From: a virus
Virus record (IMG/VR): IMGVR_UViG_3300009788_000113
Location: 1-58,311 of that record
Direction: 5' to 3' (one strand)
Length of the DNA stretch: 58,311 nt
The notes beneath the pieces were generated by a model. That model made no database searches. It saw only the letters and a program-made list of their open reading frames with translations, and was not told where the DNA came from. The position numbers and the translations under genes were made by a program. Numbering within the stretch: the stretch's first letter is position 1; every line of letters begins with the position of its first letter. This document shows positions 29,554 to 55,133 of the stretch, piece by piece.

Positions 29554-29941
29554 TCACAGCAACCTTGTTCACCGCTTCGAACGCGAGGACGAGCGCTTCG
29601 AGGAGTGTGGGGGCTGTAGTGTCGAAATCCTTGTCTTCGTCATCTTTGCACGGTGTAACCACGATGACCTTTTCATTCTGCATGCCTGATCCGTGAATCA
29701 TTCCCCCGTTGCGAATGCACTTCTCCACCATCGCGGCGGTGAGAATGAACGAAGCAATATCATCATTGACCGGAATGGGCGCTGCTCTAAGAGTATCCCA
29801 ATACTGAAACATCGGTTCTGTGCTACAGCCCTTCCGCTCAGCATCAACAACAGTGGCGAAAAAACCACCTTTCGCGCCCCAGCCCAGCAGCTTGATGGCC
29901 CTGCGGATCACGTCGTGCGATGGTTGGGGTGGGTCAGGCAT
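29543..29941 (-). CDS. Hypothetical 132-residue protein
   Basis: The ATG at 29941 has AAGGAGC 9 nt upstream. The N-terminus (SHDVIRRAIKLLGWGAKGGFF) is amphipathic helical; the remainder is mixed, with DDIASFILTAAMVEKCIRNGG and an acidic DDEDKDFD loop. It overlaps both neighbours. Base use is balanced, unlike the polymerase. No family recognised. Confidence 0.66.
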   Translation of the reverse strand: MPDPPQPSHDVIRRAIKLLGWGAKGGFFATVVDAERKGCSTEPMFQYWDTLRAAPIPVNDDIASFILTAAMVEKCIRNGGMIHGSGMQNEKVIVVTPCKDDEDKDFDTTAPTLLEALVLAFEAVNKVAVNET

Positions 29942-30344
29942 TGCCAAGCTCCTTAATCATCTCAAGTGTGATTCCTAGTCGGGGCATCACGATTGGCATC
30001 ACCAAGTCCCAATCGACCATTGGGCGGTTGCCCGCCTTGCGCGACGGGCGCATTGGGCAGCCAGCCGCAGCGTCATCGACGTAGCAAATCGCATACGCCT
30101 TCGGCGAGTTCGTCCACGACTCTTGCTCTGGGTTGCTGTTGACCGCCCAGATTGGGATTCTGTTGTGGGCGCAATAGTCAGTCGCCTTGTCTAACCCGTC
30201 GCCATGCCGCATCGTCCACAGGATGATTTTTACGCCCAGCTTCGAGAGCATCCTGAGCGATTCGGCTGCTCCAGGAACTGCTTTACCTATCTCGGGGTAC
30301 TCGTGTTCGACGATGGTGCCATCGAAGTCAACTGCCAGAATCAT
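29934..30344 (-). CDS. HAD-family phosphatase
   Basis: The 136-residue product has the HAD motif I as AVDFDGTIVEH (residues 4-14), motif II in KIILWTMRHG (about 39), and VDWD/YVDDAAAG for the acidic motif (about 88-92). This short form without a cap domain occurs in many phages and acts on small phosphate substrates or nucleic-acid ends. AAAGGAG precedes its ATG. It lies between the glycosylase and a zinc-site protein. Confidence 0.82.
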   Translation of the reverse strand: MILAVDFDGTIVEHEYPEIGKAVPGAAESLRMLSKLGVKIILWTMRHGDGLDKATDYCAHNRIPIWAVNSNPEQESWTNSPKAYAICYVDDAAAGCPMRPSRKAGNRPMVDWDLVMPIVMPRLGITLEMIKELGNA

Positions 30345-34588: not shown

Positions 34589-35953
34589 CTACGTTGTGGG
34601 GGTTTCGGCGGGCATGGTGCGTTCGAGGCATTCTACGAGGAAGGTCTGGAATTCGCGGGTTTCGTCGGATGCGCCGGTGATGTGGTGGGCGATCTCTTCG
34701 ATGCAGGCGGAGCGTTCGTGGACGGTTCCGGCGGTTTCTTTGTTGAGGTAGCAGGTGCCATCGGAGTAGGAGCCGGACGTGATGGTGGAGAGGCCGGGGC
34801 GAGGGAGGAATTGCATGAGTGAGGGTTTGGGGCGATCTCGGGTGAGTGAGTGGTGGAGGAAGGCGTCCCAGGTGGAGTCAAAGACGGCTTGGGCTTCGGG
34901 GGTTGGGTCTTGGACCTTCTCGTATTCTTTTTGTTGTGAGGAGAGGAATTCGGAGGCGGTTGGGATGCCGATGTTTTTGAGTGCTACGCGCAGGCCGGAG
35001 TCGAGGATGATTACAGGGCGGCGTCCGCGCTGGGAGATGCGGTCGTAATAGAACTTGTCGTTGTCGGTGATTACGGCGTTTTCGCCGAAGAGGGAGTAGA
35101 AGGCGTTGCGCCAGTTAGCGCCGTTGGAGACGTTCAACCAAATGTGTAAGAGATGGGCTGTTTCGAGTTCAAAGAATTCTTCCTTGTGGCGAATGGCGCG
35201 GTCGAGGAGGTTGGCGGCCATCTCTTGCGTGTATGCGCAAAGGATTTTAGCGACGTTGGTATGAATGTCGTGCCAGTCGCAGGAGCGAGACTCGTTGAGG
35301 CGTAGTTTGGAGATGTTGTAGTCGTAAAGGGAGGTTTCTTTTTGTGATTCTTGGACCCATACGCCGCGATGGAAAATCTGGAGAGTGGGTTGTGCCCTCT
35401 TCTTGAGAACGGTGTCTTCTGGGAAACCGGAGATGGGGAGGTAGTCGGGTTCGGAGAGGGGGAGGAGCTTTTCGTGGACGGTGCCGTAGGCGGCGAGGAG
35501 AGGGGGCGTCATGGGGATGTAGAAGCGGGTGGAGCCCGCGACGCCGGAGGGGGCGGAGGAGGTTACGTCGTGGACGAGGTTGGATACGGGGCCTTCGTCG
35601 AGGGCGTTGCAGATGACTTCGCGGAAGACCATCCAGGGGTCGTCCCAGTCGGCTTTGCCGAAGTCGGGGTGCATCCCTAGGCCGTACCAAGTGTTGGCGA
35701 GGAAGGTGTCTTGGGGGGAGGAGAGGCGGAAGTGGATCTCGTCTTGAGAGCAGGAGGTGCGGATGGCGAAGTCCATGCGACAGGTGCCGGAGTAGATGAC
35801 GGGGAGCGCGTCGAGGCGCGCCAATAGGGCGATGGATTCCTTGAGGCCGGTGCCGAATTGGCCGATCTGGGATTCGTCCTTGTTGGAGAGGCCCAATAAG
35901 CGGAGGCCCCAGATGGGTAGCTCGCCTTGATTCTGGATCAGGATGTGGCTCAC
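34589..35953 (-). CDS. Hsp90-like (GHKL) ATPase-fold phage protein
   Basis: The 454-residue product has IGQFGTGLKESIALLARL at about residues 31-48, like the G2 box of GHKL ATPases, and REVICNALDEG at about 111-121, like the N box (E-x3-N-A-x-D). In HSP90, MutL and gyrase the N box comes first, so the order here is swapped. The C-terminal CIEEIAHHITGASDETREFQ resembles a HExxH zinc-protease helix in which the first His is Glu. Related proteins are familiar from phage genomes under vague names. Target and activity unknown. Confidence 0.72.
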   Translation of the reverse strand: MSHILIQNQGELPIWGLRLLGLSNKDESQIGQFGTGLKESIALLARLDALPVIYSGTCRMDFAIRTSCSQDEIHFRLSSPQDTFLANTWYGLGMHPDFGKADWDDPWMVFREVICNALDEGPVSNLVHDVTSSAPSGVAGSTRFYIPMTPPLLAAYGTVHEKLLPLSEPDYLPISGFPEDTVLKKRAQPTLQIFHRGVWVQESQKETSLYDYNISKLRLNESRSCDWHDIHTNVAKILCAYTQEMAANLLDRAIRHKEEFFELETAHLLHIWLNVSNGANWRNAFYSLFGENAVITDNDKFYYDRISQRGRRPVIILDSGLRVALKNIGIPTASEFLSSQQKEYEKVQDPTPEAQAVFDSTWDAFLHHSLTRDRPKPSLMQFLPRPGLSTITSGSYSDGTCYLNKETAGTVHERSACIEEIAHHITGASDETREFQTFLVECLERTMPAETPTT

Positions 35954-36207
35954 TTCGATCCTCCCTTTTCTGTTTCGCGTAGTTCGTAAATTAGAATTTC
36001 AGCGATGCCGATGAAATATTGAGCGGCGTTATGGTCTATGGATTCGTAATCAAGACCGCCCGCTATTGCTCCTTTCATGGCTTGCCCTGTGTAATATGCG
36101 AGGAGTGTCATACCGGGGTGGATCACTGTGCGATCTATTCGGTCTTTGTCAATAAACTCTTCACGATAAGGGAAGGCGGGTCCGCCGTCGTCGATCTTCG
36201 TGGGCAT
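35950..36207 (-). CDS. GGPAFP-family small phage protein
   Basis: I chose ATG 36207, after AGGAGCC. The 85-residue product has DDGGPAFPYRE at residues 6-16, GMTLLAYYTGQAM and a C-terminal helix. This is a very common phage family (GGPAFP...GMTLRDYFA) of unknown function. A longer frame from 36255 begins with MKVPSD, encoded by a motif copy, but has a poorer ribosome site. Confidence 0.78.
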   Translation of the reverse strand: MPTKIDDGGPAFPYREEFIDKDRIDRTVIHPGMTLLAYYTGQAMKGAIAGGLDYESIDHNAAQYFIGIAEILIYELRETEKGGSK

Positions 36208-37973: not shown

Positions 37974-38420
37974 TTAGGCCCTCATCCAGTATTCGACGCC
38001 ATCGAAATCAACGCTCATGTAGTCTTGTTTGAGTTCGTCGGCGGCTGCGTCCCAGTCAAGGTGGCTTTGGGGCCATCGGTGCTCATTGGGGATCATTCCG
38101 CAATCTTCGGCGAGTTGTTCAGCGTAGTCACGGAAATAGGAGTCTCGGATGAGGGTTTCGCCGTGTATCCAGTCGCCGTAGCCCTCGCCCTCGTCTGCGA
38201 GCAGTTTCAGTGATTTCAGTTCATAGCCGTTTTCGGTTTCCCATTCGTTTACTGATGTTGCCGCGTTGTGTATTGCGTCGGCGGTTACGTGAGGGTTTGT
38301 AGATAGGTCCACTCTCTCGGCTGCCAGCGTGTCACGTTCGTCTTGGAGTTCTTGTAGACGGGCGATGATGTCGCGGGAGTCGATGATGTCGGCGGTGTTT
38401 GAGATTTCGGTCGCGGGCAT
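37974..38420 (-). CDS. ArdA-neighbour type conserved phage protein
   Basis: I chose ATG 38420 (GGAGCC upstream), 148 residues. An N-terminal coiled coil (IIARLQELQDERDTLAAER) leads to LIRDSYFRDYAEQLAEDCG, WPQSHLDWDAAADELKQDY and VDFDGVEYWMR. This C-terminal pattern is very common in phages and plasmids near antirestriction genes; I do not know its activity. Confidence 0.75.
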   Translation of the reverse strand: MPATEISNTADIIDSRDIIARLQELQDERDTLAAERVDLSTNPHVTADAIHNAATSVNEWETENGYELKSLKLLADEGEGYGDWIHGETLIRDSYFRDYAEQLAEDCGMIPNEHRWPQSHLDWDAAADELKQDYMSVDFDGVEYWMRA

Positions 38421-38430
38421 GATGGGGCTC

Positions 38431-38712
38431 CTATGTGGTGATGCCTTCGCGTTTGTTGCGGGCGATTGTGGCGTTGATTTGGGCGAGGCGGGAGTCAATG
38501 CGAGATTGGGCCAGGGCGCGGGTGGCGAAGGGTTTGCCAGCCATTCCGTGGATTGTGCCATTGGAGTAGAGGATGGCGTATCCATTTGAGACTATGGCCC
38601 AATTGGGTTTGTCTGAGGATGCGGTGTAGGGGCATGCGCCGTGGATGGAGGCGGTGCGGCCGGTGAGGGTGTGACGCCAGTGGCGGGATTCGACTACTTT
38701 GATGGGACGCAT
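38431..38712 (-). CDS. Hypothetical 93-residue protein
   Basis: AGGAGCCC stands before the ATG at 38712. The product, MRPIKVVESRHWRHTLTGRT..., has beta-type IVSNGYAILYSNGTIHG and an Arg-rich helical end (LAQSRIDSRLAQINATIARN). Basic overall; possible nucleic-acid contact. Not recognised. Confidence 0.65.
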   Translation of the reverse strand: MRPIKVVESRHWRHTLTGRTASIHGACPYTASSDKPNWAIVSNGYAILYSNGTIHGMAGKPFATRALAQSRIDSRLAQINATIARNKREGITT

Positions 38713-42125: not shown

Positions 42126-43574
42126 CTATCTAACTAACTCCCGTCGCACGCTCAACCCCTTGACTCCTCTCTTCTCCTCTCCTCTCGTCTGTGAGACGCC
42201 CCAACTCGATAGCTCGCACAGCTTCTTCGGGAAGTGCATCTGACTCACCTGCGCCCTTCTGTTGTCCCTGATCGTGTACCCGTTCTCCTTCTCCCACCAC
42301 CTTCTCAACTCCCTCACCTTGTCGTTATGCACCCACCCCCCTCGATTCTTCACGAAGCAATCATCGAGGAACGCATCAAACAAATTACTTTCCCTATCGA
42401 ACTTCCTTATCACGTCCTGCGACGAACCTGGCATCTCAAACTTCTTCCTCGGATCCTCCTCCGCCTCCAACCGTATCGCCGCATCCACGAACCTCCTCGC
42501 TATCCCCGCCAACTCCCCATCCAGCTTCCGCCCCAACTCGAAGTCCTCTCTCCCCTCGAACGAATTCTCGAACCCCAGCGCGACCATCTTGCTCGATAGC
42601 CCCCTCGCCGTATTCGGTAGCGTCAACATCTGATTGCTCTGCACAATCGGCAGCGCCCTAATCACCACATCCTTCTTCTGCCTCAGATACTTCGCATTCA
42701 CCGTCAACGTATCTTCCCCCAGCACACTCTTAAGCAAGCTGCTCACCCTCTCCCCCGTCCGATTATCCAGATCACTAGCTTCCGAGATACAGAGCACCGA
42801 GCACACATCCACCCCATCCAATCCGAACCCATCCGCCAACTCCTCCATCTTCACCCCAAAGAACATCGGATGGGGCAGCAACCTCTTCAACACCCGCGTC
42901 CCCGATCCCTTCCCGCCTCGCACCTTCCCATACTCCAGCAGCCACTTCGCATACTTTCGCGTCCCCATCAGCGCGTACCCGTACATCCTTTCTCTCAACT
43001 CCGTCCACTTCTCATCCCCCGCGCCCCACTCCTCCATGCACGACTCCCACGTCGGGCACAACGCCTTCTCCTTGAACTCCACTGGCGCTACACACGGCGA
43101 GAAGAACTCCCGTCCCCTCTCCACCACCACATACTCCATCTTCCCCGTCTCCCTCAACTTCGCCGCGCTCGCCCTCACATCCACGAGACAATTCTTGAAC
43201 GCGATCACATGCCCGATATCCGGCTTATCCCCCCCTCCACCCAACCACGTCGGTATCGCCTCAAATTCCCCCCTCGTGATCGCCTCCAGCGCCCTCCTCA
43301 CATTCCTCACCTTGTTGATGTCCGGATGGAACCTCTCCGCTACCTGCACCCCCTCCTTCTCGCTCACAATCTCCTTCGCGTCCTCCAGCATCGTCCACAG
43401 CCCATCCTCCACCTCCGCCACGGTCCTCACGCACCAAACCTTCCCGTCCCACTCGTAGAAGCTCCCCTCGTGCTCATAGAGCATCCTCCCCCCCTTCTCA
43501 TCGGTCCACAGCCCTCCCACCAACTGCCTCGCCACCTTCATCGGCTCCCTCGATTCCAGCGTCAACCCTTGCAT
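42126..43574 (-). CDS. D5-family superfamily 3-type helicase
   Basis: The 482-residue product has Walker A GKVRGGKGSG (about residues 216-225, GxxxxGKGS type as in phage D5-like helicases), then VLCISEASD (Walker B) and sensor stretch PIVQSNQMLTLPNTARGLSS. GREDFELGRKLDGELAGIARR matches the family's next helix, and the winged C-terminal domain has FVKNRGGWVHNDKVRELRRWW. There is no primase domain at the N-terminus. AGGAGG precedes the ATG. It would unwind the phage replication fork; the nearby repeats may be its origin. Confidence 0.85.
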   Translation of the reverse strand: MQGLTLESREPMKVARQLVGGLWTDEKGGRMLYEHEGSFYEWDGKVWCVRTVAEVEDGLWTMLEDAKEIVSEKEGVQVAERFHPDINKVRNVRRALEAITRGEFEAIPTWLGGGGDKPDIGHVIAFKNCLVDVRASAAKLRETGKMEYVVVERGREFFSPCVAPVEFKEKALCPTWESCMEEWGAGDEKWTELRERMYGYALMGTRKYAKWLLEYGKVRGGKGSGTRVLKRLLPHPMFFGVKMEELADGFGLDGVDVCSVLCISEASDLDNRTGERVSSLLKSVLGEDTLTVNAKYLRQKKDVVIRALPIVQSNQMLTLPNTARGLSSKMVALGFENSFEGREDFELGRKLDGELAGIARRFVDAAIRLEAEEDPRKKFEMPGSSQDVIRKFDRESNLFDAFLDDCFVKNRGGWVHNDKVRELRRWWEKENGYTIRDNRRAQVSQMHFPKKLCELSSWGVSQTRGEEKRGVKGLSVRRELVR

Positions 43575-44931: not shown

Positions 44932-45444
44932 ATGTCCGAACCTATGACAATGCTGAGCCTCGGCCCCGGACTCACCGCCGTCTCACAGGACGACATCTAC
45001 CGCCAACTCTCCATATTCGGCCTCTCCAAGAACGGCGTCTCCTCACTCCTCAAGAACTCCCTCCACGTCCCGCGCATCCACATGCCCAACCGCGAAAAAC
45101 TCGTGGACATAGTTTCCCTGCAACTCGCCTGGCGCGCAGTCAACCGCATAGGCTCCGGTGACTTCTACATGCCCGGTCACCCCTCCGTCACCAAAGGACG
45201 AGTCCCATCCGATAGTCGCACAAGCATCACGCCGCAGGAATTCTACGATAAGTACCCCATCTGGATCTCCGAACTCATGTACGCCCGCCAACTCGACTAC
45301 CGCCAGTTCACTCACGAAATGCAACGCTCGTTCCACCGCGCCGCCGAACGGATGAGTTTCGCCATGTCACGCATGGTGGGCGAAGGATCAAGAAGGTTAC
45401 CCCAGCCCGAACCCCTATCGGATGGGACTCAATATGCCGCCTGA
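44932..45444 (+). CDS. Small-terminase-like or head accessory protein
   Basis: The 170-residue product has AAGGA before the ATG. It holds LSKNGVSSLLKNSLHVPRIH and NREKLVDIVSLQLAWRAVNR, a helix-turn-helix-like N-half, and a helical C-half. Small terminase subunits have this size and HTH head, and the gene lies before terL, but conserved hallmarks are not visible. Two exact motif copies lie in it, one in each direction. Confidence 0.62.
   Translation: MSEPMTMLSLGPGLTAVSQDDIYRQLSIFGLSKNGVSSLLKNSLHVPRIHMPNREKLVDIVSLQLAWRAVNRIGSGDFYMPGHPSVTKGRVPSDSRTSITPQEFYDKYPIWISELMYARQLDYRQFTHEMQRSFHRAAERMSFAMSRMVGEGSRRLPQPEPLSDGTQYAA
45201..45214 (-). repeat. 14-bp motif, exact copy
   Basis: Antisense inside the gene at 44932; the + strand encodes RVPSDS. 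Confidence 0.9.
45416..45429 (+). repeat. 14-bp motif, exact copy, at gene junction
   Basis: Encodes LSDGT at the end of the 170-residue gene and ends 4 nt before the ATG at 45434, which has no other ribosome site. Confidence 0.92.
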
Positions 45445-46183
45445 ACCGAAGCACATCGTAAACCGCACCAACGGCGAGATCGTGGACTCATCTCAGAGCG
45501 AGGTGGGCGCGATCGTCAGTTTCTACGGCATAGATGGCTTCACGGGCGGGCTCATAGCTGGTGGTTTCAACCAGATTGACTGGGCGAAGAAGATCGCCGC
45601 TGCCATACGGCACGAAGACCCGAAGGTGTCGATAGCGGGCTCGAAAGAGCTTCGCGCCATCATGCGTGAAAAGGCGGAGATGAACGGCCACATCAACCGT
45701 ACACAGCAGTCATTCGTATCACAGAACGAAGAAGGAACACTCACTCAAACCGCCGCGCGCAAGCTACTTACGCGCTTGGAGGAGACCCCCCATGACGGCA
45801 GCAACGGATACAAAGCCGAAACCTTCCTCCCCCACGAGCCCTCCCAAGAAGGCGGCTCCGAAGCCTCCCAAGAAGAAGACGGTGGACGAGCTTCTGGAGG
45901 AGAGAGTTCCGGCGTCCCGGCTGAACAACGTGAGGACGTGCCTGCGCAGGACTCAGGAGATCCTCTCGTCAATCCCGCTACTGGCATTCACGAGGGGCTA
46001 CCAGGATCTGCTGGAGGACATGAGCGTGGAGGATCCACCCATCCTCTTGGGGAAACAGAGGGATCAAATAGCGCAACAAGTGTACGATCTTATTATGGAA
46101 ACCCGGGAGACATTGACCCCGAGGATGACGAAGACGGCTCTGGAGGTGATAGTGAATTGCCCGCTCCTCACACAGTCGCCTGA
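45434..46183 (+). CDS. Hypothetical protein with long out-of-frame overlap
   Basis: The ATG at 45434 (or 45422, inside the motif) gives about 249 residues. Residues 1-115 look like a folded domain (EVGAIVSFYGIDGFTGGLIAG, KVSIAGSKELRAIMREKAEM). From about 120 on the frame overlaps the next gene for 392 nt and turns into an acidic Gly/Ser/Glu/Pro-rich tail. Either this is real overprinting or the true stop was lost. Confidence 0.6.
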   Translation: MPPEPKHIVNRTNGEIVDSSQSEVGAIVSFYGIDGFTGGLIAGGFNQIDWAKKIAAAIRHEDPKVSIAGSKELRAIMREKAEMNGHINRTQQSFVSQNEEGTLTQTAARKLLTRLEETPHDGSNGYKAETFLPHEPSQEGGSEASQEEDGGRASGGESSGVPAEQREDVPAQDSGDPLVNPATGIHEGLPGSAGGHERGGSTHPLGETEGSNSATSVRSYYGNPGDIDPEDDEDGSGGDSELPAPHTVA

Positions 46184-46262
46184 GTCCATTGTCATCATCC
46201 TCCTCCGCTTCGCAGCAACTATCGTCTACATGCGCGAATGCGAGGCTAACTGGGACATCTGA
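45792..46262 (+). CDS. Helical protein upstream of the terminase
   Basis: The 156-residue product has GGAGGAGA before its ATG. Residues 1-35 are Lys/Pro-rich (PPKKAAPKPPKKKTVDELLE), the rest clearly helical and folded (QRDQIAQQVYDLIMETRETL, ESIVIILLRFAATIVYMREC). Its stop overlaps the terL ATG (TGATG). It may be the small terminase subunit or a packaging cofactor; the basic N-terminus would suit DNA contact. Confidence 0.68.
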   Translation: MTAATDTKPKPSSPTSPPKKAAPKPPKKKTVDELLEERVPASRLNNVRTCLRRTQEILSSIPLLAFTRGYQDLLEDMSVEDPPILLGKQRDQIAQQVYDLIMETRETLTPRMTKTALEVIVNCPLLTQSPESIVIILLRFAATIVYMRECEANWDI

Positions 46263-48292
46263 TGTCCGCGAAACCCATTCCATTCCGCCACGAAGACAAC
46301 CCCTGCTATCCCCTCCCTCCCGACTACGACGATCTCACTTCGGAGGGGCAACGGCTCGCGCGCGTCAACGCCTGTCGCCAGTGGACGCTGTGGAACAACA
46401 AAATCCACCCCATCGAGAAGGGCGAAGCCTTCGTGCGCGGCATCGACTTCTTTGATAAATATTATTTGCAGCAGGACCACGACGACGAGGGCAACGTCCT
46501 CTTCGACTCCTACTTCTACGACTTCGACCCCCTGCGCACGCCCGTAGAACACTGGGAATTCATGCGCGCTTCGATTACGAACAAGCGGCTTGCGGGGGTG
46601 ATGCCCCGGGGCGGCGCGAAGACCTCCATGCAGCGCAAGCGCATTATCATGCAGATGATCGCGCGCCCTCGCTATTCCTTCATCTACGCCACGTCTACGA
46701 ACGAACTCGCCGAGCTTACGGGCGAGATGGTCCGCTACCAACTCTACGAGAACCCCCGCATCAACGATGATTGGTCCCCCGAATACGGCGGGCGCATAAA
46801 GCCCGGACGCTCCGAGGGCTCGCAGGGCATGAAGAACTTCGTCCTCTCGAACCGCTCATCCTTCTTCGCCACCTCGGCGGAATCACGGCAGAGGGGTGGG
46901 CGTCCCATCCGATATTTGCTGGATGATCCCGAGTACGACCCCAAGGCGTCCACGTCGATGGAGGTGATTCGTGAGTGGATGGAAACGCTCATATTCAAGA
47001 TCATCATGCCCATGCTCTCGCGCCCCAACGTGGGCATAGATTGGGTGGGCACATTCGTATCCAAGCGCCACTACCTGTGGCATGCCCTCCAAACTAAAGA
47101 GACCACACTATCGGATGGGACTCTAGCAAGGGTTGCTGATGATTCCCGGTTCAACAAGTGGCACCGCCGCATTGCGAGGGCGGCTAATGAGGAGATAGAT
47201 GAAAAAGGCAACAAAGTGCTGGTGTCGTTCTGGCCCGAGATGTGGCCCTCCACCGAAGAGGAGAAGTTGCGGTTGAAGCTGCACGAGGATACGGAGACCT
47301 TGGTGCAGATAAAAGAGAACTGGGGATCCGCCGTCTTTAATGCGGAGATGATGGCGCAGCCGGGCGAGGCGGGCACGAACTTCTTCCCAGAGCTTGACAA
47401 GCGGCTTCATGGGTGGTGGATTGATGAGGGGAGTGCGGATGAGGCGTTTGCGCTCAAGCCTTACAAGTCTAAGAGCATCCTCTGTTATTATGACGGGAAC
47501 ACGGACACACTCATCGAGCGCACGATTGAGGACATGGTGTTTACTTGCTTCATGTTCCAGACAGCGGACACTTCGTATGGGGAGAAGAAAACGTCGGACT
47601 TCAAGGCGTGTGGGCTTTTCCTTGTAGATGAGAATGGCAACCTGCTGATTATGGACCTGTGGGCTGCGCAAGCGAAAGAGGCGATTCTTGTCACCGAGTT
47701 GTTCGGCATGGCCGATCGCTGGCGCTGCCCGCTTATCTGTCCTGAAAAAGTGAAGGAAGGTTCTTCGCTCATTGACTCGATCTCGGAGATCGTGAGGGTG
47801 CGCGCGAGTGACGCGATGGGAGTGGAGTGGTTGCCGACGATCGTTCCTAAGCATCCGGGCATGGCGGAAAAATCGGCGAGGATAGCGGGGTCGCTGTGGC
47901 GGTTCGAGCACGGCAAGATCAAGATGCCGCTGTGGAAGCGGGATGTGTGGCCGTGGTCCACGTTCTATGACCAGATAGAGGGCTTCAATCCGTATGTGAA
48001 GGATGGCGGGTTGGAGCATGATGATCTCATAGATATTGCGCTGGCGATGCCGCAGGCCGTGACAAGGGCGGGGATGTTCGTTAGGATCGGCGACGACGAG
48101 GTTGAGAAGACCCCGTATGAGCGGTTGATGGACGGTGAAACAATAGATCACAAGACGGGGATGAGCCTCATGCACATGGCAGTCTCCCTAGGCATGAGTA
48201 AGGCGGAACTGGATACGCTTGTGGATAGGAGGATGGGGTGGGACGGTGAGGAGCCGCCTATGCGAGCGAGAAGGCAGCACACAGCGATATGA
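46262..48292 (+). CDS. terL: Large terminase subunit
   Basis: The 676-residue product has the ATPase Walker A as MPRGGAKTSM (about residues 113-122), Walker B RYLLDDPEYD (about 216-225) and the nuclease metal ligands in DTSYGEKKTSDFK (about 435) and HDDLIDIAL (about 585). This is the motor that cuts and packs phage DNA into the procapsid through the portal. Two motif copies in opposite directions (46901 and 47109) lie 208 bp apart in it. Base usage changes from C-rich to G-rich on the + strand just between and after them. Confidence 0.93.
   Translation: MSAKPIPFRHEDNPCYPLPPDYDDLTSEGQRLARVNACRQWTLWNNKIHPIEKGEAFVRGIDFFDKYYLQQDHDDEGNVLFDSYFYDFDPLRTPVEHWEFMRASITNKRLAGVMPRGGAKTSMQRKRIIMQMIARPRYSFIYATSTNELAELTGEMVRYQLYENPRINDDWSPEYGGRIKPGRSEGSQGMKNFVLSNRSSFFATSAESRQRGGRPIRYLLDDPEYDPKASTSMEVIREWMETLIFKIIMPMLSRPNVGIDWVGTFVSKRHYLWHALQTKETTLSDGTLARVADDSRFNKWHRRIARAANEEIDEKGNKVLVSFWPEMWPSTEEEKLRLKLHEDTETLVQIKENWGSAVFNAEMMAQPGEAGTNFFPELDKRLHGWWIDEGSADEAFALKPYKSKSILCYYDGNTDTLIERTIEDMVFTCFMFQTADTSYGEKKTSDFKACGLFLVDENGNLLIMDLWAAQAKEAILVTELFGMADRWRCPLICPEKVKEGSSLIDSISEIVRVRASDAMGVEWLPTIVPKHPGMAEKSARIAGSLWRFEHGKIKMPLWKRDVWPWSTFYDQIEGFNPYVKDGGLEHDDLIDIALAMPQAVTRAGMFVRIGDDEVEKTPYERLMDGETIDHKTGMSLMHMAVSLGMSKAELDTLVDRRMGWDGEEPPMRARRQHTAI
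46901..46914 (-). repeat. 14-bp motif, 13/14 copy
   Basis: Antisense in terL, + strand codes RPIRY of the Walker B region. Confidence 0.8.
47109..47122 (+). repeat. 14-bp motif, exact copy
   Basis: Sense in terL, encodes TLSDGTLA. Confidence 0.9.
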
Positions 48293-48630
48293 CGGACGAA
48301 GCGGGCATCTTCCAAATCGGCACATCGCACATCGCGGTGCCTTTATGGCGATATGACGAGATGGCGCGCATCTTCTATTTGCATGAGTCAGGGCTCCTTG
48401 TGGAGACGGAGGGGAGTGTGGAGGGCGTGACCGACGTGTCCACGCCCGATGAGCCTACGCCCTCTCCTCCTGCGCCTAAGCCCGCGATGATAAGTGACAC
48501 GGTGCTGGGCGGCGTACCTGGGTTCCGCGCTACGAACTATGCTAAGGAAATGCAGGACAAACGAAAGGTGGTGCTGGAGAAGGTGGCGGATAATGGGGCG
48601 GCGCAGGTGGAGGTGAAGGATGACGGTTGA
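48289..48630 (+). CDS. Hypothetical 113-residue head protein
   Basis: The ATG overlaps the terL stop (ATGA). The N-half is folded (IFQIGTSHIAVPLWRYDEMA), the middle Pro-rich (PTPSPPAPKPAM) and the C-terminus charged. Between terminase and portal such small proteins are often packaging or head-completion helpers. No family recognised. Confidence 0.66.
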   Translation: MTDEAGIFQIGTSHIAVPLWRYDEMARIFYLHESGLLVETEGSVEGVTDVSTPDEPTPSPPAPKPAMISDTVLGGVPGFRATNYAKEMQDKRKVVLEKVADNGAAQVEVKDDG

Positions 48631-50653
48631 GCTTAATACGCCTGATCTGCCGACTGGGAAGGATCTCGCCGATGTGATGCGGATTCATGCGACCCGTGAG
48701 GGCTTGCGTATGTCAACCCGCATTATTCGTTGGCGATTGGCTCATGCATATCTCAACGGCGCGCGGAGGTTCGTGGCGCAACCGTTTCACAGCGGGCACA
48801 ACGGGTTGCTTGGTTCGGGCATTGTGGCGGCTGCCGAGCTTTCGGAGCGTGACCACAAGCGCGGGCGATTGCCGGTGCAGATGTCCGATCTTATCCGTGA
48901 GATAAACAAAGTGCAGGGGATGTTGGAGGCGTTCAACCTAAAGCCTCACGTTGACAGAGAAGGAACGTCTCTCACTTCGATACAGAACCGCGCTACGGGG
49001 CAGGTGATTCTGGATTCAGTTACAGACACCGAACAGTTGAATTCCATCAAGAGGCGGGCGTCACACATATTTACGACGTATGGGAGTGTAGGGTTGCAGG
49101 GGCATATGGTGGACCATCCTACTATTGGACTCACTAATGACTTCGAGGTGATACACCCGCTCGAACTGTTGTCGTGGCCTTCGTTTGGCATCGACTATAC
49201 GAGACAGACGGGTGTCATGCGAGAGCGGCTTATCCCGTTAGAGAGGTTGAGGCAGCGGTTCGGGAGGCGCATCTCACAGAATGTCAGGAAGCTGGAGACG
49301 TTCGAGCCCATGCACGGCGAGGCGTTGCCGGAGCAGGATTCACTTACATTCGTGGACGAGATGCACGGCAGGAGATTCGCGTCGTCGAACACGTCGATAA
49401 GCGACGCGACGCGGTTCACTGCGGTGCGGGTGAGGGAGTTGTGGATCACGGGCGAGCGCAATACTTGTAAGAGCTATGCGGCGGCGAGTGGTGAGTTCGT
49501 GATTACGGACCAGCGCTTCGAGAATCAGACGGTTTTCTGCCCAATCGGATGGGACTCGTTTATTGATACGGGCGATCCGCACGGGATGGGCATGTTTGAT
49601 CTGTTGTTCTCGATGGTGCGGGAGTTCGAGAGGTTCGTGGAGGATCTGATTGATAATACGAAGGACTTGAACCAGTATCCGGTGGTGATAATGCCGCAGG
49701 CGCAGTTGAATAAGAGAGAGGTTTTAAGGGATGATGGTAAATCGTTGCACTTTACGTTTGCGAGCCCCGATCCTCGATTGGCGGCGGCGGGTCAGTCGTT
49801 CAATCCCATTACGGTTGCTCCCCCGACGCTTGGGGATACGCCGGGGCGGACGGCGGCGTTCCTGAGGGACATCATCCAGCAGACGAGTCCCATCCGAGAT
49901 TTGCTGAGGGAGAAGGGGAGGGTGGATTCGCTGCCGGGGCTCCAGTTCCTGGATGAGAACGATAAGCAGAGCGTGGTGAGCGCGGCAAGGGGGTTTACCA
50001 ATGTGTTCTCGTCGGTGCATCGGTGGGCGTTGGCGGCTGCGACGAGGGAGATGGTGGCGAGTCCGAGGCCGGTGCCGATAGATAGGGTGGATCTGGGGCT
50101 CGTGGGGGCGATTGTGGACTTTGAGAGGGGGACGGTGGATTTCAAGCAGAACCCGCTGCCGGATGTGACGAGGTTGAGGGTGGGAGTGAAAGAGGTAACG
50201 CCTAGGTCGCAGGCGCTGCGGAAGCAGGAGGCGCTGGCGATGTTCACGGCGCAGTTGGCGGACGCGGACAGGCTCATACTGTTGTCGTTGGAGGAAGGGA
50301 TCGACCTAGCGCTGTGGATAGAACCGGAGAAAGCGGCTTATCAGGTGGTGGTGCAGAACATTCTCTCGCTCTATGGGGACGGACAGGCGGGGGGGAGTAT
50401 TGTGGTGACGCCGCATACGGAGAGGCCCGAGTTCCAGTTGCGGGTGTTGGAGGCGTTCATGGGCGGACCGGAGATGCGGGCGGCTTCGGCTGAGGTGCAG
50501 GACTTCTTTATCAGGTACAGGACGGCGCTGCTCGGGTTCATCTCGCCCATCTTGCCGGAGCAAGTGCCGGATCTTCAGGAAAGCGCGTTGATTGCTCAAC
50601 AAACACAAGGTAGACTTGGGCAGGCCCAAGGGGCGCTGCCACAGGCTGTCTAA
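48620..50653 (+). CDS. Portal protein
   Basis: The 677-residue product follows GAGGTGAAGG. The position directly after terL, its length (600-800 for podovirus-type portals) and its features support a portal: an N-terminal wing, a helical stem region with VGAIVDFERGTVDFKQN, and a C-terminal crown with Gln-rich tail. SIKRRASHIFTTYGSVGLQG and EVIHPLELLSWPS match the typical portal core layout. It forms the dodecameric DNA gate at one capsid vertex. Two motif copies lie in it. Confidence 0.82.
   Translation: MTVELNTPDLPTGKDLADVMRIHATREGLRMSTRIIRWRLAHAYLNGARRFVAQPFHSGHNGLLGSGIVAAAELSERDHKRGRLPVQMSDLIREINKVQGMLEAFNLKPHVDREGTSLTSIQNRATGQVILDSVTDTEQLNSIKRRASHIFTTYGSVGLQGHMVDHPTIGLTNDFEVIHPLELLSWPSFGIDYTRQTGVMRERLIPLERLRQRFGRRISQNVRKLETFEPMHGEALPEQDSLTFVDEMHGRRFASSNTSISDATRFTAVRVRELWITGERNTCKSYAAASGEFVITDQRFENQTVFCPIGWDSFIDTGDPHGMGMFDLLFSMVREFERFVEDLIDNTKDLNQYPVVIMPQAQLNKREVLRDDGKSLHFTFASPDPRLAAAGQSFNPITVAPPTLGDTPGRTAAFLRDIIQQTSPIRDLLREKGRVDSLPGLQFLDENDKQSVVSAARGFTNVFSSVHRWALAAATREMVASPRPVPIDRVDLGLVGAIVDFERGTVDFKQNPLPDVTRLRVGVKEVTPRSQALRKQEALAMFTAQLADADRLILLSLEEGIDLALWIEPEKAAYQVVVQNILSLYGDGQAGGSIVVTPHTERPEFQLRVLEAFMGGPEMRAASAEVQDFFIRYRTALLGFISPILPEQVPDLQESALIAQQTQGRLGQAQGALPQAV
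49543..49556 (+). repeat. 14-bp motif, 13/14 copy
   Basis: AATCGGATGGGACT, sense in the portal gene, read as PIGWDS. Confidence 0.85.
49886..49899 (-). repeat. 14-bp motif, 13/14 copy
   Basis: Antisense in the portal gene; + strand reads TSPIRD. Confidence 0.8.
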
Positions 50654-50664
50654 GGAGACGACTC

Positions 50665-51702
50665 ATGTTCTGGAACCAACCACTCAGAGATCCAACGGCT
50701 CAAGGCGGCGGCGCAGCGACCGCGACACAGACACAGCAGACGGGCGCTGATGGTGTGAACCTAGGACCGGGCGCGAATGGGTCGCGCGGGCAGGGGAGCA
50801 GTATCAACCTCGACACGACGGTCACGGCTGGCGGCGAGGCGTTCACCATCAATCAACTCCTCACTGCGAAGCGAGAACTGGATTCGATGAGGGGGGAGAA
50901 AGGTGAGCTTACTTCGCTGCGCGCGTTGAAGGACGCGGTGAAGCTGGTGATGCCGGATGATGGGGCGGAGGTGGGTGTGGATGTGTCCGAGCGAGCGATG
51001 AGGACGGTGCTCGCGGGCGTTGACTGGAAGGGAAACGTGGACCAATTCATTAGTGATACGTACAGGCAGGTTGAGGGTTCGGGACAGCAGGTCGCGGGGG
51101 CTCAGGCCGCTGCCAACGTCGCGCAGAATGGCGCGGTGAATGGACAAGCCACGAGCGAACTCGCGGACACCAACGCATCCGTGAACCATCAGGGAAGGTT
51201 GCTTCAAGAAGTGTTGAGGGATCGACTGAGGACCAAGACTGCTGAAGCGGTGTTGAATGACCCCATGCTCAACAAGTTCATCAAGGTCATTAAAGAGCGT
51301 GAAGGCGATAAGGGAGAAGAGGACGTAGCTAAGGTGCGCGCAGGATGGAGCGATCAGATATATCAAGGTCTGATCTCGGCGGTGGCTAGGAAGAAGGACG
51401 CGATTGGCGGAGACCTCGACATGCGTTGGATTGATGAGGTTGCGCCAGAAGTGGTGAAGCAAGTGGCGGATAAAGCCCGTTTGCTCATCGGGGATCCCAA
51501 CCAGATCGGTAGGGGGTCGTCGATGCCAGGCGGAGAGGATCCGTTCAAGGCCATACTGGAACGGGAAGCGGCGACTATGCCCAAGTACGATCCTGATAAT
51601 CCGCATGATCCGAAGTTCGACAGTAAAGTCGTTGATTTTGCGACTGATGTGCTGTCGAGAGCGGCGGCGAACGCGGATAGAGGCGAGGGCACGGTCGCTT
51701 GA
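50665..51702 (+). CDS. Scaffolding protein
   Basis: The 345-residue product has AAGGAGA 7 nt before its ATG. It has a Gly/Gln/Ala-rich disordered N-terminus, long acidic helices (TINQLLTAKRELDSMRGEKG; LRTKTAEAVLNDPMLNKF), a further helical stretch (EEDVAKVRAGWSDQI) and a short C-terminal part. Its place between portal and capsid genes is diagnostic of the internal scaffold that directs procapsid assembly and leaves afterwards. Confidence 0.8.
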   Translation: MFWNQPLRDPTAQGGGAATATQTQQTGADGVNLGPGANGSRGQGSSINLDTTVTAGGEAFTINQLLTAKRELDSMRGEKGELTSLRALKDAVKLVMPDDGAEVGVDVSERAMRTVLAGVDWKGNVDQFISDTYRQVEGSGQQVAGAQAAANVAQNGAVNGQATSELADTNASVNHQGRLLQEVLRDRLRTKTAEAVLNDPMLNKFIKVIKEREGDKGEEDVAKVRAGWSDQIYQGLISAVARKKDAIGGDLDMRWIDEVAPEVVKQVADKARLLIGDPNQIGRGSSMPGGEDPFKAILEREAATMPKYDPDNPHDPKFDSKVVDFATDVLSRAAANADRGEGTVA

Positions 51703-51728
51703 TGGCACAAGAACGGAGATAACAAACA

Positions 51729-53318
51729 ATGGCGTCGATTGCGAACTCACTCTTTGATCGCAATAAGGATGTGGTCAAAGAGTTGATAGGAAACATGGCT
51801 TTCGAGTTGCTGCCGCAGACAGACCCCATCTTCATGGGGATGCTGCTGCCGGAGTTCAGCACTGAGAGCGACAGTCTTGGTCGTGACATGCTGTTCAAGA
51901 AGAGATTCTATGGATCTCTCACAGGTGTCATCCAAGGTGCGCAGAAGAGTAATCAGTTCACGATTACAGGCGATCAGACGACTTCGCCCGTAGGCGCGCC
52001 GAAGTTGTTTAGGAATTTGCCACAGGAGACTTTTCCCGATCCGCGTGAAGGTCCGAACCCGAATCCTTTCAATCTGGCAGGCACGATCTACGCGATCGAG
52101 ACCAACTTCCTGATTACGCTGAGTATGTTGCAGTTGGACGCGACGCCCGCGAACATCAAGCAGCATGTTGTGCCGGTGTTCAGAGGGTTCGCTCGCAACA
52201 TTGCGCAGTGGGCCGCGAACAGTTGGTATCTGGACAGGGAGCAGCAGTTCAGATATTCGGAGTTGGGGCCAAGTTCGGGCACGGGCTCGTATACGGTGGA
52301 CCCGACCACGAACTTCACGATTACCTTCTTCCCTCCCCAGCGCGAAGTGCGCAGGTACATACAGGGGCAGGCTGTCGAGATCAGGAAGATTTCTGACAAT
52401 ACGCTCGTCTCGAAGTCGGACACGACTAACGCGAGGGCGCGGCTGTTCGTGGCGTCTGCTGATGTGCTGAAGAACAAGGTCGTGTTGGCGTCTGAGGAGA
52501 CGGCGACCGATGGCACAGCGGCACCGCTAGCGACGTGGGACGGAAACCTTGGCGATAGCACGGAACAGATCGTGTTGGCGGACCAGACCGATGCGTCTGA
52601 CGTGATCGAGGGTCTGTATTCGTGGAGAGATTGGTACAAGTTCCCACCAGATTCCGGTGCGACAAACGCGCAGAAGAGGCTGCTGGGATCTTCAGCAATC
52701 ACGGCCAATAACGAGTTTATTGACGTGACGCAGCACCCCGAGTTCCAGTCCTTCCATGCGTCGAGTGTGGGTCCGTTGACGGAAACCAAGCTCCTTGCGC
52801 ATCTCGACACGATGGAGAGCATGTTCGAGATGTATGGATACTTCGTTGATACCCTTATTGCAGCGTCGGGCATCTGGCTCAACGTGTTCGATATTCGTCG
52901 GGCGAAAGAGAGGGTTGACCGGACGAACCGGCCCGGGTCGATTACGAATCTCGGACTCGGAAAGGGTTTCGGGATTGAGAGCCAGACCGGACGGGTGTAT
53001 ACCGGGGTTACGAGCCGGTATCTAGAGAAGCAGACGATCATTGGCACACGGATAGCGAGCAACTGGTCTCTGGTTGTTCCTCCGGATCCCGACCAGTTGT
53101 CCCGCGCTGGGACACAGATGAACGAGGTGCCCAAGATCCCGTTGATCTTCGTGAACGAGGCGCTTAGTGGATCGGACAGGTTCCCGATTACGTCGGGCGG
53201 CTTGCTCACTGAAGCTGCGCAGTTCCCTGCGATGATTCGGATGCAGTACGCGCCGAGGGAGCAGATACCTGGCGCGGTTTGGGAAGGCGTCGATGACAAC
53301 GTGATTCTGTCTACATAG
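51729..53318 (+). CDS. Major capsid protein
   Basis: The 529-residue product follows the scaffold gene after a 26-nt spacer with a weak GGAGA site. Features expected of an HK97-fold coat protein are seen: an N-terminal helical arm (ANSLFDRNKDVVKELIGNMA), an E-loop region rich in Gly/Thr, a long spine-like helix (KLLAHLDTMESMFEMYGYFV), and C-terminal beta strands (KIPLIFVNEALSGSDRF). Codons are more C/T-tolerant than in neighbours, as for highly expressed genes. A strong terminator follows. Confidence 0.85.
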   Translation: MASIANSLFDRNKDVVKELIGNMAFELLPQTDPIFMGMLLPEFSTESDSLGRDMLFKKRFYGSLTGVIQGAQKSNQFTITGDQTTSPVGAPKLFRNLPQETFPDPREGPNPNPFNLAGTIYAIETNFLITLSMLQLDATPANIKQHVVPVFRGFARNIAQWAANSWYLDREQQFRYSELGPSSGTGSYTVDPTTNFTITFFPPQREVRRYIQGQAVEIRKISDNTLVSKSDTTNARARLFVASADVLKNKVVLASEETATDGTAAPLATWDGNLGDSTEQIVLADQTDASDVIEGLYSWRDWYKFPPDSGATNAQKRLLGSSAITANNEFIDVTQHPEFQSFHASSVGPLTETKLLAHLDTMESMFEMYGYFVDTLIAASGIWLNVFDIRRAKERVDRTNRPGSITNLGLGKGFGIESQTGRVYTGVTSRYLEKQTIIGTRIASNWSLVVPPDPDQLSRAGTQMNEVPKIPLIFVNEALSGSDRFPITSGGLLTEAAQFPAMIRMQYAPREQIPGAVWEGVDDNVILST

Positions 53319-53359
53319 ATATCCCTTCTCCACCTCTGAGGTGCGAGAATCCTCCCCAT

Positions 53360-53390
53360 GAGGGCGGGAATAAACCCCCGTCCTCGTTTT
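53360..53390 (+). terminator. Rho-independent terminator after the capsid gene
   Basis: GAGGGCGGG (53360-53368) pairs with CCCGTCCTC (53377-53385), with one G-U pair, around an 8-nt loop. A G and TTTT follow. It would end most transcription after the abundant capsid product. Confidence 0.8.
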
Positions 53391-53411
53391 CACAAACCCC
53401 GGAAACCCAAC

Positions 53412-53425
53412 TATCGGATGGGACT
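53412..53425 (+). repeat. 14-bp motif, exact copy, upstream of a start
   Basis: Lies between the capsid terminator and the ATG at 53427, ending 1 nt before it. No other ribosome site is visible. Confidence 0.92.
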
Positions 53426-53426
53426 C

Positions 53427-53987
53427 ATGCAAGTGAAGGTTGTAGATAGACTGGTGCTTGCGATGAAGCACGAAGGAGGTTCTATCTTTGATCCAATGAA
53501 GCACAGGGAGGTGAGGTGCTTGTGGGTTGAGAGTGTGAGATGTATGGCTGAGAAGCTGGGTAAGGACTTCGCGCGCGATCTGTTTCTTTGTATGAATGAT
53601 AAGGGCGGGTGCGCGGTTGCTATGTGGGAGAAGAGGCCGGTAGCAAAGGGAAGGAAGGGTGTTTTTCGGGTTATACATGCGCTGATGATGCATCCGGATA
53701 AGGGGGATGGAGGGAACTTGCCGTCGATGAGGTATATGGCGCAGCGGTTAAGGCCGACCGTAGAGATTATGGATGAGGCGATGAGAGATATGGTGGCGAC
53801 GGAGAAGATGGAGGATAACGCGAAGATGGCGTCGGAGGAGCAGAGGGATGAGATGGTGAAGCATTACAGGAAGAGAGAGGGGTGGGACAGCGCTACGGCG
53901 AGGATGCTGAAGTCGGGGGCGATGCCGTTCGTGGGCGAGGAGGAGGCGGCGTTGAGCGATACGGACGACATGCTGGGATTGGAGTGA
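53427..53987 (+). CDS. Hypothetical 186-residue protein after capsid
   Basis: Starts MQVKVVDRLVLAMKHEGGSI (an in-frame ATG at 53418 lies inside the motif). Lys/Met/Glu-rich and mostly helical, with several Cys (EVRCLWVESVRCMAEKLG; LFLCMNDKGGCAV) and MQ/MM-rich stretches. The place between capsid and connector genes suggests a head-completion or internal-core factor. The ribosome site may be the motif itself. Confidence 0.7.
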   Translation: MQVKVVDRLVLAMKHEGGSIFDPMKHREVRCLWVESVRCMAEKLGKDFARDLFLCMNDKGGCAVAMWEKRPVAKGRKGVFRVIHALMMHPDKGDGGNLPSMRYMAQRLRPTVEIMDEAMRDMVATEKMEDNAKMASEEQRDEMVKHYRKREGWDSATARMLKSGAMPFVGEEEAALSDTDDMLGLE

Positions 53988-53988
53988 G

Positions 53989-54915
53989 ATGCATTCAACG
54001 GGCGCTATCTTGTGGTCAACGCTTGAGGATATAGCGTTCTTGTTTGATGAGTCGTGGGGAGAGGGTAAGTATGACGCGAACTTCGCGGTGAACAGGTTTG
54101 TGCAGCCGAAGATAGATGAAGTGTGGTCGCGCGTGATACTAACGATGGACAACGTGGTGCTTATCAGGCACCAGATTTCTATACTGAAAGATGTAGCTTC
54201 ATACGAGTTGCCGCCACAGATACAGGAGATATGGAGGGTGGGGCTGCTCGACGATCAGGGGGATTTGGTGGCGGAGTGGAGGCCGAGGGGTTATTTCCAT
54301 CCGCATGGGCAGAACTGGAGGATAGAGCATAACCAGTTAGTGTTTGACCCGAAGCCGAACGTAGCGTCCACGGCGCAGATTGACTATGTGCCTTCGGGGG
54401 ACGTGTTCGTGCATTGGCATGATGGGACGAGTAATTTGGGGGAGGTGCTGACGACGACGACGTTCAAGGGGACGAAGACGCCAACGCTGGGGATATTTGA
54501 TAGAAGGGCGAATGCGTATGTGGGGAGCATACTAAGAATACTAGGGAAGAATCCTAATGATGCTGCGAGTGTGTGGGAGGAGCACATCATTGACTCGCAG
54601 GCGAACGATGTGTTTACGACGAGGACCGTGATGTCGAGCGCTGTGAGTACGGGGTATCAGTATGAGGTGGTTCCGGCGGGGTATACGGCGATTGCGGAGG
54701 CGGTGTCGATGGCGGGCGCGTCGAAGTTTGGGTTGGGGAGAGGGATGAGCCAGAAGAAAGCGAACCAGATTGCCATTGAGTATGCGGAGGCGATCAAGAC
54801 AATTACAGATAGGCTGTCGAATCTGAATATGAGGTTTGGAGATCATTATGATCGACAGACGATAGATAATCCTGAGATGATGGTGCATGTGCATGGGACC
54901 GGGCATATCTTCTGA
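53989..54915 (+). CDS. Head-tail connector, tail-tube A-like
   Basis: The 308-residue product starts one base after the previous stop. The N-half has helices typical of connector adaptors (TLEDIAFLFDESWGEGKYD; FVQPKIDEVWSRVILTMDN), a beta middle (SYELPPQIQEIWRVGLLDD, NWRIEHNQLVFDPKPNV) and helical C-terminus (KANQIAIEYAEAIKTITDRL). This is the plan of gp11-like tail-tube A proteins that attach below the portal. The call is supported mainly by order and pattern. Confidence 0.66.
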   Translation: MHSTGAILWSTLEDIAFLFDESWGEGKYDANFAVNRFVQPKIDEVWSRVILTMDNVVLIRHQISILKDVASYELPPQIQEIWRVGLLDDQGDLVAEWRPRGYFHPHGQNWRIEHNQLVFDPKPNVASTAQIDYVPSGDVFVHWHDGTSNLGEVLTTTTFKGTKTPTLGIFDRRANAYVGSILRILGKNPNDAASVWEEHIIDSQANDVFTTRTVMSSAVSTGYQYEVVPAGYTAIAEAVSMAGASKFGLGRGMSQKKANQIAIEYAEAIKTITDRLSNLNMRFGDHYDRQTIDNPEMMVHVHGTGHIF

Positions 54916-54928
54916 GGAGGATAAGTGA

Positions 54929-55132
54929 GTGTCGCAGATATCTGAGAGCGATGCGAGAGAACTGTTGAAGCAGATGGACCTTGCGCTGAGGCCGGGGGTG
55001 CGCGGGGAGACGGATGAGTTTATTCGTGCTTCGTTTGGGATTGGGGTGAGGGCGTCGTTCGTGCCGGGGAACTCGTTTGAGGGGCCGTTCAAGGTGAAGG
55101 TGCAGGACGACAGCCTGGTGGAGGGGACGTAG
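54929..55132 (+). CDS. Small connector-region protein
   Basis: A GTG start after GAGGAGG gives 67 residues: MSQISESDARELLKQMDLAL, then FIRASFGIGVRASFVPGNSF and a short beta end. It may be a tail-completion or head-closure subunit. It is packed 1 nt before the next gene. Confidence 0.66.
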   Translation: MSQISESDARELLKQMDLALRPGVRGETDEFIRASFGIGVRASFVPGNSFEGPFKVKVQDDSLVEGT

Positions 55133-55133
55133 C

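Follow-up and report, generated by a model that had tools for sequence, protein, structure and literature searches.

A gene of 454 codons on the minus strand of an IMG/VR virus record encodes a protein in which the motifs of the GHKL ATP-binding fold stand in the order G1, lid, G2 and N-box, followed by a transducer, a helical linker and a zincin-like domain. The window, meaning the whole stretch of DNA that was analysed, has 58,311 bases. GHKL proteins rank among the major ATP-binding superfamilies; to our knowledge, they always carry these boxes in the order N-box, G1, G2. That the protein has a GHKL fold and that this fold is permuted is almost certain. Taken as a whole, it is best explained, with a probability of about 0.6, as a permuted, transducer-bearing (Hsp90/MORC/sacsin-like) GHKL clamp joined to an altered zincin, in a DNA-metabolism setting. 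A natural rearrangement of the GHKL fold appears to be previously undescribed: a literature search covering few subscription journals, and for that thin coverage no proof of absence, returned no description of a permuted GHKL, Bergerat or HATPase domain, of a phage MORC or of a GHKL domain combined with SprT.

The gene and its family

The features are as follows (positions of the window, all on the minus strand).

34589..35953, minus: the complete gene; its 454 aa comprise the permuted GHKL ATPase, a transducer, a helical linker and a zincin-fold domain
35960..35965, minus: strong ribosome-binding site GGGAGG, 6 nt 5' of the GTG start, read from the sequence
35918..35947, minus: strand and box of G1 type, ILIQNQGELP (residues 3-12), with Asn8 where the canonical Asp would be; from conservation and fold matches
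35867..35899, minus: short MORC-like lid LLGLSNKDESQ, residues 19-29; from conservation, colinear with MORC2 FGKSAKR
35840..35866, minus: G2 box IGQFGTGLK, residues 30-38; conserved throughout the family, although used for its selection; aligns to the Hsp90 G2
35552..35662, minus: transposed segment, residues ~98-134, with N-box helix 107-119 and the next strand 127-131; from profile alignment to the unpermuted sister
35597..35623, minus: N-box REVICNALD, residues 111-119 (E112, N116, D119); from invariance, aligns to Hsp90 positions 29-45
35513..35536, minus: GTxV-like strand GSTRFYIP, residues 140-147, in its canonical place before the transducer; strand 141-147 in the model
35168..35509, minus: S5-like transducer domain (residues 149-262), aligned by VIA with MORC2/Hsp90 up to residue ~257
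35285..35299, minus: LNESR, residues 219-223; hhalign pairs R223 with the middle-domain arginine of Hsp90 (LNVSR)
34904..35167, minus: helical linker, residues 263-350, from DSSP of the model; no known fold was matched to it
34610..34903, minus: zincin-fold domain, residues 351-448; structure matches to four known zincins
34664..34699, minus: EEIAH...D, residues 419-430; HExxH site with the first His changed to Glu, Asp conserved

The open reading frame starts with GTG at 35953 and stops at 34589-34591. Since the strong GGGAGG lies 6 nt before the GTG, there is no hidden N-terminal N-box ahead of the reading frame; no extra N-box was found within 700 bases 5' of the gene in 143 loci, nor any tandem-duplication intermediate with two N-boxes among the loci checked. 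The earlier note, made from the letters alone, had placed a G2-like box (GQFGTGLK, residues 31-38) ahead of an N-like box (REVICNALDEG, residues 111-121). This was borne out: a G1-like ILIQNQGEL (residues 4-12) sits at the extreme N-terminus before G2, and the order G1-G2-N recurs across the family. The structure prediction and search for relatives which that note had proposed gave a GHKL-type fold with matches to Hsp90 and MORC2, more than 200 viral loci that conserve the permuted order, and an unpermuted sister family.

The N-box carries the E-x3-N-x2-D of GHKL proteins (E112, N116, D119) and the G2 box their GxxGxG (G31, G34, G36, together with K38). The DxGxG of G1 is absent, the box reading N8-x-G10 without the second Gly, and the usual N-box, G1, G2 order is replaced by G1, G2, N-box. 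Asn stands for the Asp of G1 in 111 of 117 sequences and G10 is kept in 97 of 117; the G1 Asp contacts adenine in Hsp90, and the Asn may alter nucleotide affinity.

Most of the 71 phage records matched by tblastn come from Yuavirus and related phages that infect Pseudomonas, Bordetella, Stenotrophomonas and other hosts. Scanning by the G2 motif yielded 204 relatives in viral contigs, the best 80 of which were taken on, and 19 in genome contigs. Among the 97 relatives gathered by the G2 motif alone, W103, R111, E112, N116 and D119 were identical in all 97. This is the real test, because the N-box was among the selection criteria of the 117-sequence set, where its invariance proves nothing. A motif order that recurs in the family, together with an N-box invariant in 97/97, is not due to chance. 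Elsewhere in the 117 sequences, G21 of the lid is invariant and S23 and K25 are strongly conserved, T142 of the GTxV-like strand is present in 101, and E221 and R223 of the transducer in every one. The phrog_8203 profile (unknown function) matches the protein over the ATPase-transducer module (residues 1-262, E 1e-20) and was matched by 72/72 family members. Searches for the canonical order miss permuted proteins, so the family in cultured Pseudomonas, Bordetella and Stenotrophomonas phages is mostly called 'hypothetical'; some of the matched phage records are annotated 'HATPase', 'ATP-binding protein' or 'metallopeptidase'. A copy in a Paraburkholderia symbiont (L100:3998-4435) has a premature stop beyond the N-box that leaves it 147 codons long.

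Relocation of the N-box segment

An unpermuted sister family, phrog_6077, was identified in phages (113 records, with members in L188, PaMx11, Luteibacter phage Pluto and Vibrio, Erwinia and Klebsiella phages). Its boxes follow in canonical order, HWGxxEAxRELxQNAxD, G1, LLGxSxK and IGxFGEGxK, then YGYD...RDR. Given this canonical sister and the G1-G2-N order, the window protein is to be read as a permuted descendant of GHKL proteins.

When profiles were compared, the score against the sister family was 136.5 in native order and 202.5 with residues 90-134 placed in front, and the best stretch grew from residues 6-59 to 14-237 once the segment had been moved. Segment 97-140 alone aligns to sister positions 24-46, the N-box, at E 4.9e-9. 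Leaving residues 135-148 in place gave a score of 198, against 187 when they were moved too, so the moved piece is probably a helix plus a strand. From these alignments, the transposed piece is probably one segment, comprising the N-box helix and the next strand, which now stands before the GTxV-like strand and the transducer.

The Hsp90 profile scored 33.4-33.6 in native order, with only the N-box stretch aligned, 42.6-47.6 with the N-box segment in front, and about 27 when the segment was scrambled or dropped. Three islands align to Hsp90: the N-box, the G2 region and LNESR, the last against LNVSR, whose transducer arginine in Hsp90 reaches the gamma phosphate. With MORC2 (PDB sequences) the match changed from E 0.3, confined to G1-G2, to 7e-4, when N-box, G1, lid and G2 aligned colinearly; the sequences behind the two profiles differed in number. 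The sacsin ATP-binding model of NCBIfam, 80 positions long, aligned with the window protein over positions 42-68 only and with the unpermuted protein of L188 over 3-68, all below the cut-off. Single sequences gave no Pfam HATPase match in native order and none after the segment had been moved to the front; none of 72 members matched Pfam HATPase, the sacsin model alone being matched, weakly.

In the joint tree, permuted and unpermuted proteins are split by one fully supported branch and one change is needed, which suggests a single permutation event; the root was placed on the unpermuted side by choice.

The AlphaFold2 model, a monomer prediction from 72 aligned sequences, reached a pLDDT of 94.7 and a pTM of 0.85. 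Foldseek matched it to Hsp90 (E 5.7e-6) and, weakly and at the C-terminus, to selecase. VIA aligned model residues 1-257 with MORC2 residues 61-462 (Z 8.3) and also matched Hsp90/TRAP1 (Z about 7.7), both matches beginning just before G1. Z values near 8 are middling alone; the weight rests on the agreement of fold, motifs and profiles. A second model, of the distant relative L150 from the HExxH clade described below, had a pLDDT of 87.8, an identical order of elements and the same fold matches, with topoisomerase VI and GyrB in addition.

Some records name the unpermuted sisters 'RIIA lysis inhibitor' or 'histidine kinase' (L227, Klebsiella phage phi1_175008; PAKlein3), and these names look unreliable. 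Both forms of the ATPase occur within the Mesyanzhinovviridae, the permuted one in Yuavirus and the unpermuted one in Abidjanvirus, and the gene contexts differ (L225, PaMx11; L004, AN14).

The C-terminal zincin-type domain

Residues 351-448 adopt a zincin fold in the model, with VIA matches to jannalysin (Z 7.7), abylysin (7.5), the DPC-repair protease 6mdx (7.4) and selecase (7.2). The helix EEIAHHITGASDETR (residues 419-433 of the 454-aa protein), which the earlier note had taken for an HExxH helix whose first His is replaced by Glu, proved to be just that, EExxH standing where a zincin has HExxH. The motif E-E-x-x-H...D occurs in 77/117 permuted sequences and H-E-x-x-H...D in 15/117, the latter forming one fully supported clade; counting the sequences with a full motif only, one change on the tree suffices for the switch between His and Glu. 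Recurring Pfam matches of the relatives were to SprT-like and once to WLM, all weak, below the cut-off and to be taken as a lead only; some members of these families cut proteins crosslinked to DNA. A metzincin (HExxHxxGxxH/D) was ruled out, the spacing being one residue longer here.

Two unpermuted proteins, from Moorella phage MTATph1 (WPA89660.1) and Exiguobacterium phage vB_EalM-132 (AYP68649.1), both annotated hypothetical, also carry the domain.

L234:1486-2823 and L235:1489-2799: unpermuted ATPases with a C-terminal HExxH zincin-like domain, from the Moorella and Exiguobacterium phages

Their C-terminal ends read HETLHKYSGARDCTREF (MTATph1) and HETIHRVTGANDNTEAF (vB_EalM-132). The MTATph1 protein has a true DDGPGI G1 box and an HATPase_c match (4.8e-5); the N-box of the vB_EalM-132 protein is degenerate. 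A single-sequence search of viral contigs found no relatives of L104 or L234. As HExxH is kept in these two as well as in the 15 permuted sequences, the joining of ATPase and zincin appears to predate the permutation, and on the sequences HExxH looks like the ancestral state.

The earlier note had further proposed a permuted ATPase fused to a dead or altered protease, and of this the permuted ATPase, now resting on fold, motifs and sister family, and the altered domain stand, whereas 'dead' seems a poor fit to the residues that are kept. The domain could possibly be a pseudo-enzyme, a dead fold that merely serves the ATPase clamp as a protein-binding or dimerisation module, given that 77 of the 92 domain-bearing sequences lack the first ligand His and that the domain has been lost or replaced altogether in several lineages; decay, however, would be expected to strike E420, H423 and D430, which are invariant in both clades of a 42-sequence alignment. 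EExxH is retained in 77 diverse members, and the base Glu and second His were kept after the first His was lost, which argues for an altered, used site over a decaying one. We therefore regard the pseudo-enzyme as a minority reading; rather than dead, the protease-like site looks changed and maintained by selection.

Residue 436, paired with residue 419, is Arg in the HExxH members and, nearly without exception, Gln in those with EExxH; the pairing may reflect a changed site or ancestry alone. One supported permuted clade (L028, L035, L041, L043, L061) has a different C-terminal end instead of the EExxH motif.

Gene setting, proposed mechanism and known systems

On the same minus strand of the window lie a primase (42126-43574), an ArdA-like anti-restriction gene, a DNA polymerase, an exonuclease and a Sak4-like annealing protein. 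Among 93 neighbours of relatives, the named families were mostly helicases, primases, methyltransferases, annealing proteins and a topoisomerase, with recombinases also present; longer same-strand reading frames were scanned, so this sample leans to large genes. No conserved neighbour was shared widely across the family, and no neighbour in the window recurs. The neighbourhoods point, tentatively, to replication and recombination of phage DNA. The 'new kind of phage effector' foreseen in the earlier note found no backing, as nothing indicates a host target. PADLOC returned no convincing match, the hits to DrmB (0.0026, L004) and TmtA (0.0016, L188) being weak and partial.

The ArdA-like candidate (37974-38585, minus; phrog_25535 E 1.1e-31, phrog_2059 anti-restriction 2.8e-4) lies ~2 kb upstream of the ATPase gene. 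Replication-type genes occupy the minus strand over 13288-44816, and a terminase and other long reading frames the plus strand over 44932-57857; many long reading frames of the window have no PHROG match. A small reading frame (29934-30344, minus), starting MILAVDFDGTIVEHEYPEIG, looks by eye like a putative HAD-type phosphatase.

A protector resembling T4 rIIA, which would shield infected cells from exclusion or premature lysis and have no part in DNA metabolism, seems unlikely. RIIA does appear among the BFVD fold matches (E 3e-5, below rank 7), and some sister records bear its name. One of 72 members matches phrog_612 (RIIA) at 4.4e-4, weakly, the window protein giving no match. These matches, however, are weak, partial and common to all GHKL proteins, the neighbours are mostly DNA-metabolism genes, and RIIA has the canonical motif order.

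Under the permuted-clamp reading, the first helix-strand unit, with the N-box, would have been relocated from the front of G1 to between the ATPase sheet and the GTxV-like strand and transducer. The relocated helix probably folds back to where it normally sits, which would leave ATP binding and hydrolysis normal: E112 would act as general base, N116 would hold Mg2+, G2 would bind the phosphates and R223 of the transducer would reach the gamma phosphate. An active ATPase is likely, judging from conservation and from what is known of Hsp90 and MORC proteins. By analogy with these, ATP binding would close a dimeric clamp. The zincin-fold domain would descend from an HExxH form, the first ligand His having become Glu in the EExxH clade, and, with base Glu, second His and Asp retained, it probably continues to bind a metal or ligand, whether as an altered enzyme or as a site for binding. 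The likeliest setting is replication or recombination of the phage genome, where the clamp might act on the DNA or on proteins bound to it; this DNA role, weakly suggested by the neighbours and the SprT/WLM-like similarity, is held with low confidence. A speculative extension, which we hold to be rather improbable, joins a natural circular permutation of the Bergerat fold, arisen once in phages, to a zincin metal centre rebuilt for a different activity by a His-to-Glu change that has persisted since, giving an ATP-clamped metalloenzyme whose targets while the phage replicates would be proteins bound to DNA.

GHKL proteins function as dimers, and the sequence fixes the order of the segments, not the chain that donates the helix. 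The N-box helix might thus complete the ATP pocket of the partner chain in a segment-swapped dimer, which would be an ATPase only as a dimer and which a model predicted as a monomer would not display. As that model is of very high confidence throughout, residues 100-150 included, such a swap is very unlikely. An Hsp90-like helper for the folding of phage proteins is more improbable again: Hsp90 gives the best Foldseek matches, but these are limited to the ATPase-transducer module, the MORC match is equally good, and in place of a recognisable Hsp90 C-terminal domain there is a zincin domain (Pfam scans gave no match to PF00183, the Hsp90 middle and C-terminal domains). That the N-box is a chance resemblance in a protein that is no permuted GHKL, as the missing Pfam HATPase matches might suggest, is already refuted by the 97/97 N-box, the alignment of the segment to the sister and the fall of the Hsp90 score on shuffling or dropping it.

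A permuted branch beside an unpermuted sister would show that the fold tolerates relocation of a catalytic helix, in an event open to experiment, and the conserved switch from HExxH to EExxH offers a clean test of a zincin without its first His.

Among known systems, MORC2 shares with the window protein the GHKL and transducer fold, the FGxSxK lid and a G2 box IGQYGxGLK; it differs in its canonical order and in an S5 signature that the window protein lacks. A MORC-type GHKL plus S5 (transducer) with its basic finger residue is present, given the fold match over 1-257 and the invariant R223. The MORC family carries the signature GhXhhpXXRhl in its S5 domain (PMC2292703). Membership was ruled out, this signature being absent from the window protein and found in 2/117 sequences at scattered positions, by chance.

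Hsp90, TRAP1 and HtpG have in common with it the ATPase-transducer fold, an N-box RELISNASD and the LNVSR arginine; unlike it, they keep the canonical order and end in a C-terminal domain of their own, without a zincin. The N-terminal ATP-binding domain of sacsin (NF047352, PF25794) shows weak profile similarity, below the cut-off, and canonical order. T4 RIIA is likewise a phage GHKL ATPase, with canonical order, another C-terminal part and weak fold similarity only. Minigluzincins (selecase, jannalysin, abylysin), SprT/SPRTN and WLM resemble residues 351-448 in fold, the SprT-like and WLM profile matches being those of relatives; in the window protein and 76 relatives, the first ligand His of these zincins is Glu.

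The closest counterparts are in phages. In phrog_6077 (e.g. PaMx11 gp71 and the 'histidine kinase' of Pluto), the GHKL-transducer module is homologous over its whole length after the segment move (E 9e-29), but the order is N-box-G1-G2 and most members end without a zincin domain. WPA89660.1 and AYP68649.1 have the same ATPase-transducer-zincin architecture as the window protein, from which they differ by their canonical order and intact HExxH.
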